A stretch of DNA of 64,000 bases. Origin: Methanosarcina vacuolata Z-761. GTDB taxonomy: Archaea > Halobacteriota > Methanosarcinia > Methanosarcinales > Methanosarcinaceae. This document shows positions 3,542 to 63,398 of this stretch, piece by piece. Within the stretch, counting starts at the first letter, position 1; every line of letters begins with the position of its first letter. A program made the translations under genes and the position numbers. The notes beneath the pieces are model-generated. The model was not told the DNA's origin. It saw nothing but the letters and a program-made list of their open reading frames with translations, and ran no database searches. The stretch lies in the NCBI RefSeq assembly GCF_000969905.1, contig NZ_CP009520.1, forward strand, positions 3,596,001-3,660,000, in the 5' to 3' direction.

Positions 3542-3967
3542 TTTAATAACTTTTAATAGTCTTGGACAACACTACTATTTTTCAAATGTCTATTTTACTT
3601 TCTAGTACTTTTTAAAGTCGATGGAAGCCAGAAAACCTCTATTCTCCTTTAAAATTATCTTTTTTGCTTAATGACAGGACATATCTTAAAAATTGAAATT
3701 AAAAGGCTAGTTAAATATTTGGAAATTAAAGGGACCCATAGCATAGAAGTTGGCTTATAATCAGCTTCTATTTTGTGTTTTGAGAGTTGTATAGGTCTGT
3801 TAAACATTACATCTATTTTGAAAGTGTTTATTACTGCCTCAAATGGTTCGTTATTTTCCATGAAGGCAGTACTCTGGAGTTGAGTTAGATTACCGAGGTA
3901 TTTATAATTCTAGCCCGACGAAGACAAAAAATAGACGAGCAGATTTCAGCAGGATAATATAAACGCT
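3542..3967. other. spacer between tRNA-Ala and the lectin gene
   Basis: These 426 bases are AT-rich, and I see no convincing gene in them. A 68-codon minus-strand frame (3655-3861) has no ribosome binding site and no recognisable motif. The T-rich run just after the tRNA (3540-3600) is a plausible termination region. Confidence 0.5.
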
Positions 3968-5074
3968 TTATTTCACTGTATCTGCCGTCACATCTCTATT
4001 GTGCCAGGTACTGTTAGAACTATGCCATGCATATTCGTAAACATGATAATTATTTCCAATATAGTAGACACGTGGATCTCCGCCGTAGATTATTGATGAA
4101 AGTTTATAACGTACTGCTGGCTGTCCACCAGAATCTACTGTCACATCTCTGTTGTGCCAGGTACTGTCAGAGCTATGCCATGCATATTCGTAGACATGAC
4201 TATTATCGCCAAAATAGTAGACACGTGGATTTTCACGGTAGGTTATTGATGAAAGCTCTCTAAAATTTTCTGCTGGTTGCCCACCAGAATCTACTGTCAC
4301 ATCTCTGTTGTGCCAGGTACTGTCAGAGCTATGCCATGCATATTCGTAGACATGGCCATTATTGCCATAATAGTAGACACGCGGATCTCCAACGTAAGTT
4401 ATTGATGAAAGCGGACTTGCAGGCAATGCTGGCTGTCCACCAGAATCTACAGTCACATCTCTGTTATGCCAGGTACGGTCAGAACTATGCCATGCATATT
4501 CGTAAACATGATAATTATTTCCAATATAGTAGACACGCGGATCTCCAACGTAAGTTATTGATGAAAGCAGACTTATAGACAATGTTGGCTGTCCACCAGA
4601 ATCTACAGTCACATCGCTGTTATGCCAGGTACTGTCAGAGCTATGCCATGCATATTCATAGACATGATAATTTTTGCCAAGATAGTAGACATGTCTATTA
4701 AACGGAGTATAATTGGTTGTTGATGAAAGCGAACTTATAGACAATGCTGGCTGCCCACCAGAATATGCTGTCACATCTCTGGAGTGCCAACTGCCACCAA
4801 CCCAACTACCACCAACCCATCCTTCATTGGCAAGTTCGTAGACATGATTGTTATTGCCAAAATAGTAGACATAAATATTATCAAATCCATCGTTTATTGA
4901 CGTAAATGCGCTTCCATCTACTGCTGGTTGTCCCCCTGCCTCTGCTGTCACATCTTTGTTGTGCCATGTACTGTCAGAGCTATGCCATGCATATTCGTAG
5001 ACATGACCATTATTTCCAATATAATAGACACGTGGATCTCCGCCGTAGGTTATTGATGAAAGTAGACTATTCAT
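3968..5074 (-). CDS. seven-repeat lectin-like beta-propeller protein
   Basis: This 368-residue protein consists almost wholly of seven repeats of about 46-58 residues. Each reads roughly LSSITY-DPRVYYIGNN-HVYEYAWHSS-TWHNRDVT-GGQPA. The W, H and Y pattern with YYxGxNxHVYEY resembles the blades of fucose/galactose-binding propeller lectins (fungal AAL and Photorhabdus PLL families). The seven blades would close one propeller with binding pockets between neighbours; sugar binding is inference. The second blade deviates, with a duplicated VGGSW motif. No signal peptide or anchor is seen, so it is cytosolic or exported by an unknown route. The DNA repeats are nearly identical, indicating recent duplication or ongoing gene conversion. 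The ATG at 5074 has GGGGGT about 11 bases upstream. Confidence 0.75.
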   Translation of the reverse strand: MNSLLSSITYGGDPRVYYIGNNGHVYEYAWHSSDSTWHNKDVTAEAGGQPAVDGSAFTSINDGFDNIYVYYFGNNNHVYELANEGWVGGSWVGGSWHSRDVTAYSGGQPALSISSLSSTTNYTPFNRHVYYLGKNYHVYEYAWHSSDSTWHNSDVTVDSGGQPTLSISLLSSITYVGDPRVYYIGNNYHVYEYAWHSSDRTWHNRDVTVDSGGQPALPASPLSSITYVGDPRVYYYGNNGHVYEYAWHSSDSTWHNRDVTVDSGGQPAENFRELSSITYRENPRVYYFGDNSHVYEYAWHSSDSTWHNRDVTVDSGGQPAVRYKLSSIIYGGDPRVYYIGNNYHVYEYAWHSSNSTWHNRDVTADTVK

Positions 5075-5270
5075 TTATTTTCATACCCCCAATTTAATCG
5101 TTATAGATTAAAATTGGCGGAATATTATATATATACTAGTATAAACGCTTGTGAATAATATTGGTATTTTTAAGTGGAATAAGAAGTAATTACCAAAATG
5201 CCTAAAAGTTGATTTTTCAAGTTTTTGCGATTGCCAAAAATAATTTTATCGTTATTTGAAAGGGGAGTTT

Positions 5271-6760: not shown

Positions 6761-7759
6761 ATGAAAGAAAGAACATATGCTAAAACACACAGTGGACATG
6801 CCTTCATAAAAGTTTTGGGAATAGCAATGCTGGCTATTTCAATGATGGTGAGTATAGCAGGCGCAGAACCCTATGCATATATTACGAACTCCGGAAGCAA
6901 CAATATCTCTGTAATTGATACAACCACAAACACAGTTACAGCCAATGTGACTGTAGGAAACTATCCTGTTGGAGTTGCAGTCTCTCCAGATGGAACAAAG
7001 GTATATGTGACGAACTCATTCAGCAACAATGTTGCTGTAATTGATAATGCAACCAACACTGTTACATCAACAGTGAATGTCGGTAAATGGCCTCTAGGAG
7101 TTGCAGTCAGTCCGGATGGAACAAAGGCATATGTGGCGAACGGGGGCAACAACAGCGTTTCTGTAATTGACACTTCAAATAATACAGTTACATCAACGGT
7201 GGATGTCGGTAAATGGCCTCTAGGAGTTGCAGTCAGTCCGGACGGGACAGAGACGTATGTTACAAACGCATTCAACAACAATGTTTCTGTAATTGACACT
7301 GTAACTAACAATGTTACAGACACCGTGCCTGTAGGCTACATTCCTGTTGGAGTTGCAGCCTCCCCGGATGGAAAAATAGTGTATATTACTAACACTGGCA
7401 GCAACAGTGTTTCTGTAATTGACACTGAAACTAAAACTGTCACATCAACGGTAAGTGTTGGAGAATATCCTGTTGGAGTTGCAGTCTCTCCGGATGGAAC
7501 AAAGGTATATGTGGTGAACGCTGGCAGCAACAATGTTTCTGTAATTGACGCAGCAACCAATTCCGTTGCAGCCACAGTAAATGTAGGGAATATGCCTCAT
7601 GGTGTTGCAGTAACCTCTGACGGAACAAAGGCATATGTGTCAAACTCCGACTACAATGGAACCGTCTCTGTAATTGACACTGAAACAAACACAGTTACAG
7701 CTACTGTACCTGTAGGAAACTATCCTGTTGCCATCGGGCTGTTTATAGTTCCTCTTTAA
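6761..7759 (+). CDS. secreted YVTN beta-propeller surface protein
   Basis: This is a 332-residue exported protein. Residues 1-36 form a signal peptide: a basic N-terminus, a hydrophobic core near LGIAMLAISMMVSIAGA, and likely cleavage before EPYAY. It is followed by seven repeats of 42 residues with the pattern Y(V/I)TN-NNVSVIDT-TNTVT-TVxVGxxPVGVAVSPDGTK. Such YVTN repeats form a seven-blade propeller and are common in Methanosarcina surface-layer proteins. Here the seven blades are the whole mature protein: no PKD domain, membrane anchor or C-terminal sorting signal follows. It may be released, held through other proteins, or truncated. The ATG at 6761 has GGGGGATT just upstream. A short open stretch in another frame after the stop (to about 7862) could be a lost C-terminal extension. 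Confidence 0.88.
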   Translation: MKERTYAKTHSGHAFIKVLGIAMLAISMMVSIAGAEPYAYITNSGSNNISVIDTTTNTVTANVTVGNYPVGVAVSPDGTKVYVTNSFSNNVAVIDNATNTVTSTVNVGKWPLGVAVSPDGTKAYVANGGNNSVSVIDTSNNTVTSTVDVGKWPLGVAVSPDGTETYVTNAFNNNVSVIDTVTNNVTDTVPVGYIPVGVAASPDGKIVYITNTGSNSVSVIDTETKTVTSTVSVGEYPVGVAVSPDGTKVYVVNAGSNNVSVIDAATNSVAATVNVGNMPHGVAVTSDGTKAYVSNSDYNGTVSVIDTETNTVTATVPVGNYPVAIGLFIVPL

Positions 7760-58058: not shown

Positions 58059-58798
58059 GGTATTGTTAACTAATTATAGCTATCTCTTTATTTCTATGTT
58101 TCATTAATAGAAGAACAGAGTACTTTAGCATTTCAAGACTCTTCGTATAACATTTTGTCTTTCGTCTCAACCTTGCCAGAAAGTGCCTCAATATGTCGTT
58201 ATACCCTTCAACTGTATATGTTTCTGCTTTAGATTGAGTATGAATATTTTCTGGAAGAAACTCTGCATATGCTCTCCAGTGATCTGTCATCACTTTTCCA
58301 ATCTTTTTCTGCTTTAATTTTTCCCATATTAGTTGTCCAGTTTCAGTTCCTCTGCTACCAAAAGAGCAGTTGATGAACTTTTTCCCAACTCTATCAACAG
58401 CAATCCAGATCCAGCAATATTTTTTTTGTTACCGATGTAAGTGTGTATCTCATCCATTTCAACAATAGATATCTCATTTTCGCTTTTCAAGTCCTTCAAC
58501 TCTTGACCAAATTTCTTTATCCAGTTTTGGACAGAAACATGACTTACTCCTAAAAATCTTCCTATTGAGCGAAATCCTAATCCTTCAAGATAGAGTTGCA
58601 AAGCCTGTCTCTTGACAGAAGGGGAGCTAGCAGTTGATTTTAACTCTACTGTATAGTTATAGCCACAATCAGAGCATTTGTAGCGTTGACGTCCAAAAAC
58701 TATACCATTCTTTTTGTGAGTGAAACTATTACACCTTGGGCAATTCATACAGAAATATAGGTTCTCATGACATATAGCTATAATTAGTTACCAAAGCC
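58059..58798 (-). mobile_element. IS1-family element, copy 2, with 8-bp target duplication
   Basis: GGTATTGTTAACTAATTATA at 58059 and the inverted GGCTTTGGTAACTAATTATA ending at 58798 are the terminal repeats. AATGATTT is duplicated at 58051-58058 and 58799-58806. It is about 95 percent identical by eye to copy 1 and inserted into the 3' end of a fucosyltransferase gene. Confidence 0.93.
58066..58748 (-). CDS. IS1-family transposase made by -1 frameshifting, copy 2
   Basis: The arrangement is the same as in copy 1: zinc-ribbon CPRCNS and YKCSDCGYNY, helix-turn-helix, VEMDEIHTYIGNKK, then eight adenines on the minus strand at 58420-58427. After slipping back one base the frame continues to 58066 through MTDHWRAYAEFLPEN and YTVEGYNDILRHFLARLRRK. 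Both copies preserve the A8 run and an uninterrupted second frame, which argues for programmed slippage rather than decay. Confidence 0.85.
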
Positions 58799-59678
58799 AA
58801 TGATTTTTATCTTTATTGACATCTATGATGATCGAAAAGGAAGGTTGAATGCCCGGATGTGATTCTATTTTCTTTTTCCAACCGTACCAATATTTCGGTG
58901 CTATTACCAAGTTTCTTTCATTCATCAGATACGCACCCCACCACGAAAAAGAACTATTCGAAATGACTCCTGCTTTGCACAAGGTCATTATTGCTAAGTC
59001 AACTTGCATAGATTTTTTTGAAATAATTTTTGGTTCTATTTCTTGAAAACAGCATTCTATATATGAAGGATCGTCTGACAAAAAGATAAAAAAAGGATTT
59101 TTTATTTTTTCTTTGATGAGATTTATAGCATTTTCAAAATAATACTTTGGAAGATCTATTCCTCGTTCTTCCATAAAAGATTCTCTTATATAATCTCCTC
59201 TCCTAATGTGAACAAAAACTTTTGTATAATTATCAGATATTTCTGATAGAAATTGCCTAGCTTCTGTTAAATATTTTCCTTTGATTTGCAAATTTGAAAT
59301 GTTTATTTGACTCTGATTAAAGAATATCTCTGATTGGAAGAAATCAGTATTTACATACCTGATATAAGAGAATAATCCTTTTTTTTCTCTCCAATCAGGC
59401 AGTGGACGTAAATTGAGATCTTTTTTTTGTTCAATGTAGTTTATTATTCTAACCTTAGATAGTGGCCTAAGCAATAATGGTATAATAATCTTCTGAATTA
59501 ACAAACATACGTACTTATCTGAACTATGCCAAATAATATGTTTGTCAAAATCAAATGATTTAAAAAGCATCTTCATATTCAAACAAATTATTCGCTCATT
59601 TTTTTTTGATATTGTTTTTAAAAACATGTATTGAAAGATTTGATTACCCAACCTTCCATCTGCCAAAAAAATTAACAT
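58788..59678 (-). CDS. GT11 alpha-1,2-fucosyltransferase-like, 3' end cut by IS1
   Basis: This enzyme of about 296 residues has the GT11 motifs FLADGRLGNQIFQYMFL (start), KVFVHIRRGDYIRES (GDP-fucose binding) and VISNSSFSWWGAYLMN. It would move fucose (or a related GDP-sugar) to a galactose residue. The last four codons (HWLW and the stop) come from the IS1 insertion, so a short original tail has been lost; all three motifs remain. ATG 59678 has AAAGGGA five bases upstream; the frame also opens at 59711. Its base composition is strongly AT-rich. Confidence 0.88.
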   Translation of the reverse strand: MLIFLADGRLGNQIFQYMFLKTISKKNERIICLNMKMLFKSFDFDKHIIWHSSDKYVCLLIQKIIIPLLLRPLSKVRIINYIEQKKDLNLRPLPDWREKKGLFSYIRYVNTDFFQSEIFFNQSQINISNLQIKGKYLTEARQFLSEISDNYTKVFVHIRRGDYIRESFMEERGIDLPKYYFENAINLIKEKIKNPFFIFLSDDPSYIECCFQEIEPKIISKKSMQVDLAIMTLCKAGVISNSSFSWWGAYLMNERNLVIAPKYWYGWKKKIESHPGIQPSFSIIIDVNKDKNHWLW

Positions 59679-60210
59679 TTTATCCCTTTCAGTAGGCGAT
59701 TTAATATACATCTATAGTTTTCATAGCTAAGCTCTCTTATCTTTAGATATGTGAAATGATTTCGAGATAGAATAGTCAAATTAACAAGGGTTAATACTAT
59801 ATAAAGAGACAAATCCAAAACTCAAAATTTGGTGCGAGTTCAAAATAGCCCGAGAGTTGATTGTACGCATGTTTGAAGATTTCCCAAAGACGGAATTTCT
59901 GCAATTCTATGTTTTTTTAAGAGTCCCTCATTCAGTTTACTAGAGAGGATAACATGTTTATTTTTGGTATTACTAACAAAACATCTCCACATTTTTTTAA
60001 GCATGATGTCAATCCTTTTATGGCATAGATTCAACTAAAATGAAAAGTATCCGATGACCCATCATTATTTTTTGTAAACTGGTCAATATTAAAAGCATAA
60101 TTCCTATGTCAAGAGACTGGATTAACGTTTGTTTTTTGTCTGTATATTTTTCTCTATCTGCGACATACACCAAATTATGAAATAGATCTTCTATTTGTGC
60201 TCATGTATTG
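59679..60210. other. spacer with MITE fragment and possible gene relic
   Basis: CCAAAACTCAAAATTTGGTG near 59814-59833 matches the left end of the 131-bp MITEs. A 64-codon minus-strand frame (59840-60034, KHRIAEIPSLGNLQ) has no recognised homology and no good start signal, and could be a decayed transferase. The rest is AT-rich. Confidence 0.4.
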
Positions 60211-61372: not shown

Positions 61373-62146
61373 TTACACAAAGCTTACTATTCTATATGCT
61401 TTATATTTTAAATGAGTGTATTGATTCAAAATATTACATTTCAGTTTTTTGAAATAGTTGTCAAAATACTTACCATTTACAAAAATTGCATCTCCTGAGT
61501 ATTTCCCTATGTTTGTAAATCCAACTAACAAAAATCCTTTTTTATTTAGAAATGCTCTTAAGTCATCATAGAGTGGCTGATCTTTATATATCTCAAAAAA
61601 TTCAATTTCTAAATATACTAATTTAAGCTGTTGAATTCTATCTCCTAATCCTTTTAATGCTAATAATTCAGCTCCTTGTATATCCATCCACATCAAGTCA
61701 ATTGTATCTATTGAATTTTCTTTGATAAAATCCTCTAGTCTAATTGATTCTACTTCAATTTCATCCTGAATATACTTCTCCACTGGATATTTTCCTGATG
61801 CTTTAAATATTGATGAAGCACCTGGATTCCCATTAGCCCACGTTGTTATGGTTTTTGACGGATTAATTGGATAAAATTTAATAATCCCTGTAACATTTGA
61901 AACAGCTTTCTCAATCAAATTTATACGTGGCTTATTTTTTACCGCCGCTCGACAATCAGGAAGCGTTTGAGGATTACATTCAAAAGTATAAATATTTGCA
62001 TTTGGCAATAATTTGTAAAAGCTAAGTGTTTCCCGACAATCTCTTGCTCCGACCTCCACAAGCACTTTAATTGATTGCTTCCCTAAAAGTTCTTTTGCAA
62101 TTTTTACCACTTTATCTACACTTGATTCATAATTCTTCAACGTCAA
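61373..62146 (-). CDS. FkbM-family methyltransferase
   Basis: This is a 257-residue class I methyltransferase of the FkbM type: VLVEVGARDCRETLSFY (SAM loop), IYTFECNPQTLPDCRAAV, EVESIRLEDFIKENSIDTID and LMWMDIQGAELLALKGLGD, the hallmark of FkbM domains. Such enzymes O-methylate sugars of surface glycans. Its start overlaps the stop of the exporter ATPase gene by 20 bases, so it is translated with the export system. Confidence 0.9.
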   Translation of the reverse strand: MTLKNYESSVDKVVKIAKELLGKQSIKVLVEVGARDCRETLSFYKLLPNANIYTFECNPQTLPDCRAAVKNKPRINLIEKAVSNVTGIIKFYPINPSKTITTWANGNPGASSIFKASGKYPVEKYIQDEIEVESIRLEDFIKENSIDTIDLMWMDIQGAELLALKGLGDRIQQLKLVYLEIEFFEIYKDQPLYDDLRAFLNKKGFLLVGFTNIGKYSGDAIFVNGKYFDNYFKKLKCNILNQYTHLKYKAYRIVSFV

Positions 62147-63398
62147 TTTTTTCAGTCTCCCAAAAAAGGTATGGTCTTATAACGCCGTGCATTTGAAGTT
62201 TATAATCGCCTCTTGTTATAGCATTCAAATCATCTTGGACACTAAATAAAATTTCTGTTTGGCAATGGATATACACAGGATTGTGTGTTGTGAGTGCAAT
62301 ATTAAGAATATAAGTTTCATTGTTTAGCAAATTAGCTGGAATCCACGCAATTGATCTATATTTTCCTTTTGTAAAAATACCCTCAGTTTTAGTTTCTAGG
62401 GATTGGAAAACTTTAGTTCCTGCTTGAGTACTTATCAGAAAATTTGCTGAAGGTTTATAACCTTCTTCCAATATTTGGTAAGTTGTTTCTATCCCAAAAT
62501 TTTCATTCACTACTATAGTATTAGAAGTTGTACGATCTTTTTTTATAATTCTTACTCTCAAAAGTTTCGTAAATTTATCCCCGATATTTTTTTTATTATA
62601 ATCTACATCTAATTTTTTTGGTGATTCTTTAAGCATGTATAAAGATACCATTTCGGTAGGGGTTCCATCTGCAACATTTCTTCCTCCATTCAATAAAATA
62701 ACTCGATTGCAAAGAGTAGTGATTGCATCCAGATTATGACTCACAAACAGCACCGTCTTTCCTTTTTTTGCTACATCCTCCATTTTTCCAAGACATTTTT
62801 TCTGAAATTCTGCATCTCCCACCGCGAGTATCTCATCCACGAGCAAGATCTCAGGATCAAGATTTGCTGCAACCGAAAAGGCAAGCCGAACCTGCATTCC
62901 GCTTGAATATCGTTTTACGGGTGTGTCTAGAAATTTCTCGACGCCTGAAAACTTTACTATCTCTTCAAACTTCTCGTCTATCTCTCTCTTCTTCATTCCG
63001 AGGATAGCTCCATTAAAGTAAATATTCTCTCGTCCTGTAAGCTCAGGATGAAAACCAGTTCCTACTTCAAGGAGACTTCCCACACGACCTCTCAGGATAA
63101 TCTCACCCTCTGTAGGATATGTTATGCGGGAAAGAATCTTAAGAAGAGTACTTTTCCCCGCACCATTTCTACCAATGATGCCAACTATTTCTCCTTGTTC
63201 AATTTCGAAGTTCACATCATTGAGTGCCCAGAATGTATCATTCGGCTTGTGACTTTCCTTCAGCATCTTTAGCGGGTGCCTCACAGCGGAAGTAAAGCTG
63301 TCACAAAATGTCTTGTATGTTCCATCCACACCAATGTTATACTGCTTTGAGAGATGCTTTACCTCTATTATCGGTTTTTCCTTTTTTGACGCCGCCAT
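62127..63398 (-). CDS. ABC polysaccharide exporter ATPase (Wzt-like)
   Basis: This is a 423-residue ATPase of the O-antigen/teichoic acid export type. The nucleotide-binding domain (1-245) has Walker A IIGRNGAGKSTLLKIL, the signature KRYSSGMQVRLAFS, Walker B EILLVDEILAVGD and the switch histidine in VLFVSHNLD. The C-terminal 170 residues are a beta-sandwich like the Wzt carbohydrate-binding domain (NFGIETTYQILEEGYKPSAN, ILNIALTTHNPVYIHCQTEI), which recognises the modified glycan end in bacterial systems. The start ATG abuts the permease stop (TGAATG). The finished lipid-linked glycan is its probable cargo. Confidence 0.93.
   Translation of the reverse strand: MAASKKEKPIIEVKHLSKQYNIGVDGTYKTFCDSFTSAVRHPLKMLKESHKPNDTFWALNDVNFEIEQGEIVGIIGRNGAGKSTLLKILSRITYPTEGEIILRGRVGSLLEVGTGFHPELTGRENIYFNGAILGMKKREIDEKFEEIVKFSGVEKFLDTPVKRYSSGMQVRLAFSVAANLDPEILLVDEILAVGDAEFQKKCLGKMEDVAKKGKTVLFVSHNLDAITTLCNRVILLNGGRNVADGTPTEMVSLYMLKESPKKLDVDYNKKNIGDKFTKLLRVRIIKKDRTTSNTIVVNENFGIETTYQILEEGYKPSANFLISTQAGTKVFQSLETKTEGIFTKGKYRSIAWIPANLLNNETYILNIALTTHNPVYIHCQTEILFSVQDDLNAITRGDYKLQMHGVIRPYLFWETEKIDVEEL

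Follow-up and report, generated by a model that had tools for sequence, protein, structure and literature searches.

The propeller lectins of the AAL/FleA family (PF07938), which include AAL, AOL, AFL, SapL1 and AofleA, have six blades, each with a common set of strands, an arginine 12 residues before a glutamate, an aromatic residue three positions after this glutamate (Glu+3) and a tryptophan further downstream. In SapL1, an Arg/Glu/Trp triad binds O2 and O3 of fucose (PMC8352872). The fungal members have no leader peptide, and fungal fruiting-body lectins, AAL included, are described as cytoplasmic proteins without a signal sequence that serve in defence (PMC6272156). Furthermore, AAL produced in a fungus slows the propagation of nematodes (PMC6238071). 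The PLL/PHL lectins of Photorhabdus (DUF346, PF03984), which correspond to class PropLec7A in LectomeXplore (PMC7778903), are propellers of seven repeats, and the CV39L lectin is represented by a separate NCBIfam model (NF052350). Recently amplified propellers have been described from various phyla, among them Euryarchaeota (Pereira and Lupas 2022, PMC9218822), and the multiplication of propeller blades is for this reason already known in itself; the text of that paper mentions neither Methanosarcina nor fucose. The literature that we searched says little about lectins of archaea, and PMC8728848 states that its data set contained none.

The DNA analysed here, a stretch of 64,000 nucleotides from Methanosarcina vacuolata Z-761 that we refer to as the window, belongs to a genome of 4.56 Mb in two contigs. 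It carries one intact, ATG-started frame (Table 1) for a protein of 368 aa that consists of seven HVYE-centred repeats, spaced 53, 60, 52, 52, 52 and 51 aa apart, with a blade length of approximately 52 aa. The gene was independently flagged by a tandem-repeat finder (156-bp period, score 969) and is present as a single copy in the genome. The original prediction had described a stand-alone archaeal protein encoded by a single reading frame of seven repeats, without an export signal and next to tRNA genes, and all of this was confirmed: frame, HVYE spacing and tandem repeat agree, the host is of one genus with Methanosarcina sp. UBA11020 (see below) and thus a Methanosarcina, the 368 aa hold no further domain, and two tRNA-Ile genes and one tRNA-Ala gene adjoin. 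The N-terminus leads directly into blade 1 without any hydrophobic segment: its best 11-residue Kyte-Doolittle mean is 0.5, compared with 3.3 for a secreted, lectin-like protein that this genome also encodes. Weak family matches to DUF2947, Caud_bapl16_3rd and PHROGs were attributed to the composition of the repeats, and PADLOC returned no match.

Table 1. Positions of the lectin gene, its blades and related features; numbers refer to the window unless a contig handle precedes them.
Feature	Position	Strand	Basis or remarks
Lectin-bearing stretch, in place of which the syntenic congener G028 has 279 bp	3561..5250	.	Synteny comparison
Seven-bladed lectin-like protein, leaderless	3968..5074	-	ORF, repeat count, putative site residues
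Blade 1	4910..5065	-	Putative site residues R15, E27, W30, W37
Blade 2, most diverged, 8-aa insert	4730..4909	-	Y68 replaces Arg, E80, N83 replaces aromatic
Blade 3	4571..4729	-	H128 replaces Arg, E140, W143, W150
Blade 4 (in modelled segment)	4415..4570	-	R180, E192, W195, W202
Blade 5 (in modelled segment)	4259..4414	-	R232, E244, W247, W254
Blade 6 (in modelled segment)	4106..4258	-	R284, E296, W299, W306
Blade 7	3971..4105	-	R335, E347, W350, W357
Glycosyltransferase of family GT11 (fucosyltransferases), which could make a self ligand	58788..59711	-	PF01531, E 6.6e-22
Wzt-type polysaccharide-export ATPase with Wzt_C domain, on the strand of GT11	62127..63398	-	Gene annotation
UBA11020 blade stretches	L009:3-1001, L008:4076-4550		Blades before C70 protease; leaderless gene start on second contig

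The claim that the seven blades are near-identical applies to blades 1, 4, 5, 6 and 7, which share 70-85% of their residues and 80-88% of their nucleotides (ungapped), but not to blade 3, which is 54-63% identical to these five at the protein level (ungapped), and even less to blade 2, whose ungapped identity of 23-26% to every other blade is an underestimate owing to its 8-residue insert. The core of blade 2 has its highest identity (78%) to a blade from UBA11020. Over the 21 ungapped pairs, the median blade identity is 63%, which lies above the threshold of 60% for highly repetitive propellers and is in this respect like the recently amplified cases (PMC9218822). Codon-level identity between several blades, another part of the original prediction, exists to the extent that the five alike blades use the same codon at 27-35 of 44 codons, but silent change is present as well: among their ten pairs, dS is 0.10-0.52 and dN/dS 0.17-0.94, thus below 1 in every pair. 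The five alike blades are old enough for silent change, and purifying constraint is acting on them. From codon identity and dS together it follows that the copies are not fresh; their likeness is maintained by selection, conversion or both.

The putative sugar-site residues link these blades to the AAL/FleA lectins. The glutamate is conserved in all seven blades and is preceded by an arginine at Glu-12 in five of them (1, 4, 5, 6 and 7); tryptophan is found at Glu+3 in every blade but blade 2, and at Glu+10 in six of the seven, blade 2 having tryptophans at +6, +11 and +16. In line with the lectin reading of the original prediction, the full Arg/Glu/aromatic/Trp fucose-contact pattern stands at the correct spacing in five of the seven blades. 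In the AAL-family segments that we inspected, the glutamate follows the arginine by 12 residues in 11 of 11 cases, and one SapL1 segment has a tryptophan at +10. An AofleA mutant (7c3e, R97A/R150A/R203A) differs from the wild type, over the 73 residues compared, only at the arginine positions that align with those of the window protein. The UBA11020 blades have histidine in the arginine position (three of three compared), and blades of the VDS type, from the genomes G246 and G406, carry lysine or arginine in the position of the site glutamate.

For the full-length protein, AlphaFold2 run on the single sequence gave no usable model (pLDDT 41.1). A segment comprising blades 4-6 was modelled with an alignment made up mostly of pieces of the protein itself in shifted register, to which two UBA11020 blades were added, and the best of five models had a pLDDT of 86.9 and a pTM of 0.82 (the others reached 68.8, 59.8, 55.1 and 51.9). 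Four strands are present in its first and second blade, and three or more in its third. Among the best 50 Foldseek matches, ranks 1-27 were occupied by FleA, AofleA, AFL, AOL, AAL and PLL/PHL lectins; LGI1 was the first protein outside the AAL and PLL groups, at rank 28, and CV39L appeared at ranks 43-45. The top match in VIA was AofleA (Z 17.0-17.3 over 141 aligned residues, 2.2-2.3 Å, 16-18% identity), with PLL2 at Z 16.2 (9% identity) and AAL 1iub at Z 14.4 (20% identity), where rows less than 1 Z apart count as tied and absence from the VIA list was not taken as exclusion. The structure matches thus place fucose lectins ahead of LGI1, kelch, nucleoporin and sialidase propellers. The expectation of a lectin propeller in the predicted structure was borne out for the three-blade segment, the part of the chain with a usable model, and no family of non-sugar-binding propellers outranked the lectins for this segment. 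It is the three-blade model only that matches the AAL/FleA blade fold and the packing of neighbouring blades.

At the sequence level, a profile of the blades searched against PDB sequences ranked AofleA (7c37, E 0.0017), the AofleA mutant, AAL 1iub, SapL1 6trv and AAL 1ofz as the first five; their E-values of 0.0017-0.042 are marginal, and later ranks contained antibodies, the Kordia fucose lectin 6htn (0.41) and others. A comparison of blade profiles, which covered seven blade types by one method, related the lectin blades to AAL at 95.1%, VDS at 94.9%, CV39L at 78.0%, a third Methanosarcina type at 54.5%, PLL at 17.2% and a Nocardia type at 2.1%, with segments chosen by hand rather than every repeat taken, the SapL1 pieces coming from the blade-profile matches themselves, which favours AAL, and the AofleA, AAL and AOL pieces coming mainly from a separate search. 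For AAL, VDS, CV39L and PLL, none of 60 column shuffles each reached the observed score. Because VDS propellers, which have no site glutamate, score 94.9%, blade likeness alone is no proof of sugar binding. PF07938 was not listed for the lectin at E up to 10, and the DUF346 repeat (PF03984) did not match it, while the positive control, the protein L028 from the same genome, matched DUF346 at 2.5e-17. L028 is a secreted PLL-type protein (G000:C2 around 2653000; PDB match to PLL at 7e-52), and DUF346 matches occur in 3 of 30 genomes of the genus. As a control in the PDB search, L028 retrieved chains of the PLL family, the best of them at 7.3e-52, but, with E allowed up to 1, none of the AAL family. 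The best NCBIfam model for the lectin was that of CV39L (E 3.1e-19), with 69.3 bits against a cut-off of 350.

The protein thus shares with the AAL/FleA lectins the blade strands, the arginine, glutamate, aromatic and tryptophan positions and the missing leader of the fungal members, and these lectins are its nearest PDB relatives by both blade profile and three-blade fold; it differs from them in having seven repeats rather than six blades, in its archaeal origin, in the missing PF07938 match and in the near-likeness of five blades. With the PLL/PHL lectins it has the number of repeats and a high place in the fold search in common, but DUF346 is unmatched, the blade profile reaches 17% and the VIA identity 9-11%, and L028, the PLL-type protein of its own genome, is separate from it. 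AAL and PLL types are barely separable by fold, but separable by sequence. CV39L, though the best NCBIfam model, remains at 69 of 350 bits and at 78% in the blade profile.

Taken together, we consider that the gene probably encodes a stand-alone, cytoplasm-made and multivalent lectin of AAL/FleA blades, with seven blades instead of six and with a predicted fucose-type specificity. Each blade would be a four-stranded meander, and the sugar, fucose or a fucose-like one, would be gripped at the blade edge by Arg and Glu (and Trp) and stacked on aromatic residues, like fucose in AAL, SapL1 and AofleA. Five sites would be complete, blades 2 and 3 having no arginine, and the seven blades would presumably close the ring. 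The blades would have multiplied within their own lineage, with selection, conversion or both upholding their likeness. That the protein binds glycans, but has another deoxy or methylated sugar as its main ligand, is fairly unlikely in our estimate: the PLL-family lectins, whose ligands in crystals include 3-O-methyl-glucose and rhamnose, also stand high in the fold search, and tyrosine and histidine replace the arginine in blades 2 and 3, but five blades have the whole pattern of the fucose lectins.

Turning to the locus, the lectin gene lies between the tRNA-Ala gene and a cytidine-deaminase-like gene; the tRNA neighbours are uninformative with respect to the function of the lectin. An AT-rich, TATA-like stretch upstream of the lectin ATG (5121..5137, minus strand) was picked out by eye and is a candidate archaeal TATA box when set against the consensus. 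The tRNA block of the congener G028 reaches up to window position 3560, and homology returns at 5251, such that there 279 bp stand in place of 1690; in G027, G001 and G015, the tRNA block is followed by homology to the deaminase gene, again without the lectin. The gene is thus missing at the syntenic place in these four relatives; in G008, the fifth stretch compared, the right flank alone matched. Elsewhere in the window, an 11-bp unit, TTATGAGGATA, is repeated 18.7 times with 97% match at 739-944 and adjoins a DDE transposase gene (992-2728). Another repetitive propeller, of the YncE/lactonase type and with a likely leader, is encoded at 6761-7759 and has many similar stretches in the genus.

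The same blade type was seen elsewhere only in Methanosarcina sp. UBA11020 (G019). A protein search of 59 relatives, including the genome itself, gave matches in three, namely itself, UBA11020 and G027, and the blade profile matched the own genome and UBA11020 among 30 genomes of the genus and nothing in the other 28. The G027 match (L003) belongs to a different propeller type, the third Methanosarcina type, and was not counted; this protein (L003:271-2544, minus strand) has no evident leader and continues into a further domain with a GHSRGA motif, which we take to be lipase-like. Over 392 genomes of the phylum, the blade profile matched the own genome and G246 (E 4.7e-5), and the protein search the own genome and G406 (L007); both are propellers of another type, namely VDS, and were left out of the family. 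Homologues in other archaea were thus found in UBA11020, but by the blade profile not in 28 of the 30 genus genomes, nor with the same blade type in other genomes among the 392 of the phylum. A scan of a contig collection with one short peptide pattern, which relatives, bacterial ones included, could escape, matched 16 stretches, of which two were confirmed, both from UBA11020. Plasmids and phages gave no tblastn match to the lectin, two scans of viral contigs gave no confirmed relative, and a Foldseek search against viral models had no lectin-like leading match; one viral DNA-pattern match lay antisense to an ORF that by eye resembles a topoisomerase and was taken as chance.

In UBA11020, the blades are found on the contigs DUGT01000155.1 and DUGT01000194.1. 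On one contig they open a leaderless gene, and on the other they precede a papain-like C70 domain (PF12385, E 3e-13); both contigs hold runs of N, and the two ends may or may not be one gene. This is a lectin-protease architecture in an archaeon, and it resembles that of the fungal chimerolectin MOA, a lectin joined to a cysteine protease (PMC12964528), though the lectin of MOA is a beta-trefoil and the lectin of the window has no protease. A plasmid search with the C70 part gave seven records, and among the three inspected, a Nocardia sp. plasmid (NZ_CP109569.1, L029:1933-3474) encodes a leaderless propeller of near-identical blades of another type before a C70 protease, which is 48% identical to the UBA11020 kind over the match. 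The top C70 score in the genus was obtained at G021:C25:198453-198887, within an open frame of 1657 aa.

As for the role, the missing export signal is not odd in itself, since it is the norm among the similar fungal lectins (PMC6272156). We favour the idea that the lectin, when released by lysis or feeding, would bind the fucosylated surface glycans of others and act in a defence-like manner, because fungal lectins with the same blade do so and because the UBA11020 blades precede a papain-like protease. In Streptomyces, the propeller lectins of umbrella toxins aim at surface sugars (PMC13274773). Fungal lectins, MOA and umbrella toxins bear on the role as analogies. The wider idea that some Methanosarcina hold leaderless fucose-type lectins, alone or, as in UBA11020, fused to a protease, as a fungus-like arsenal that is released upon damage against the fucosylated surfaces of predators or competitors is in our estimate doubtful.

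A different role would be the recognition of self glycans, as had been proposed from a fucosyltransferase-like gene in the window; here, the lectin would act outside of the cell, cross-link the organism's own fucosylated polysaccharide and aid clumping. That gene indeed belongs to glycosyltransferase family 11, and it shares one strand, from 58788 to approximately 2.4 kb past the end of the window, with Wzt, a Wzm-type permease gene that crosses this end, and fcl and gmd just beyond it. The gmd of this export cluster scores 621.9 bits (cut-off 415) and fcl 517 bits (cut-off 500), and a second gmd and fcl pair is located at 905-908 kb in the genome. From its gene content, the organism appears capable of producing a fucosylated polysaccharide and of exporting it, so that this side of the proposal gains in substance. 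However, fcl exceeds the cut-off in 11 of the 30 genomes of the genus, and ten of these lack the lectin, the own genome being the sole exception; in UBA11020 (assembly 87% complete), the blades occur without an fcl above the cut-off; and the lectin gene lies 54 kb from GT11 and encodes a leaderless protein. We therefore hold self-recognition to be unlikely.

We regard it as quite improbable that the protein is a propeller without sugar binding, for instance an intracellular protein-binding scaffold derived from the secreted VDS-type propellers of archaea. The high blade-profile likeness to VDS, the leaderless N-terminus and the fact that the sole other blade-profile match in the phylum is the VDS-type protein of G246 are compatible with such an origin, but VDS blades lack the site glutamate and the structure ranking sets the fucose lectins first. 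The secreted VDS-type proteins (G246 and G406) have a leader peptide and further surface domains, neither of which the lectin has. A functionless, decaying remnant of a lectin-protease fusion, conceivable from the order of blades and C70 protease in UBA11020, is very improbable in view of the intact frame, the dN/dS values of the alike blades, the lack of a meaningful C70 trace in the window (best tblastn E 7.3) and the absence of PF12385 from the genome in a domain search.

What seems new here is that an archaeal protein of seven repeats carries fucose blades of the fungal type. We recognised no description of this protein in the literature on Methanosarcina or archaea in combination with lectins, propellers or fucose, in a search that covered the minority of subscription journals. 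If the fucose sites are real, the AAL type of lectin would reach into the archaea, and the protein would be an unusual case of sugar recognition in this domain. It would also offer a near-symmetric scaffold for the study of propeller multiplication. Finally, it opens the question of defence or self-recognition by lectins in archaea, which is sharpened by the apparent export of a fucosylated polysaccharide in the same organism.
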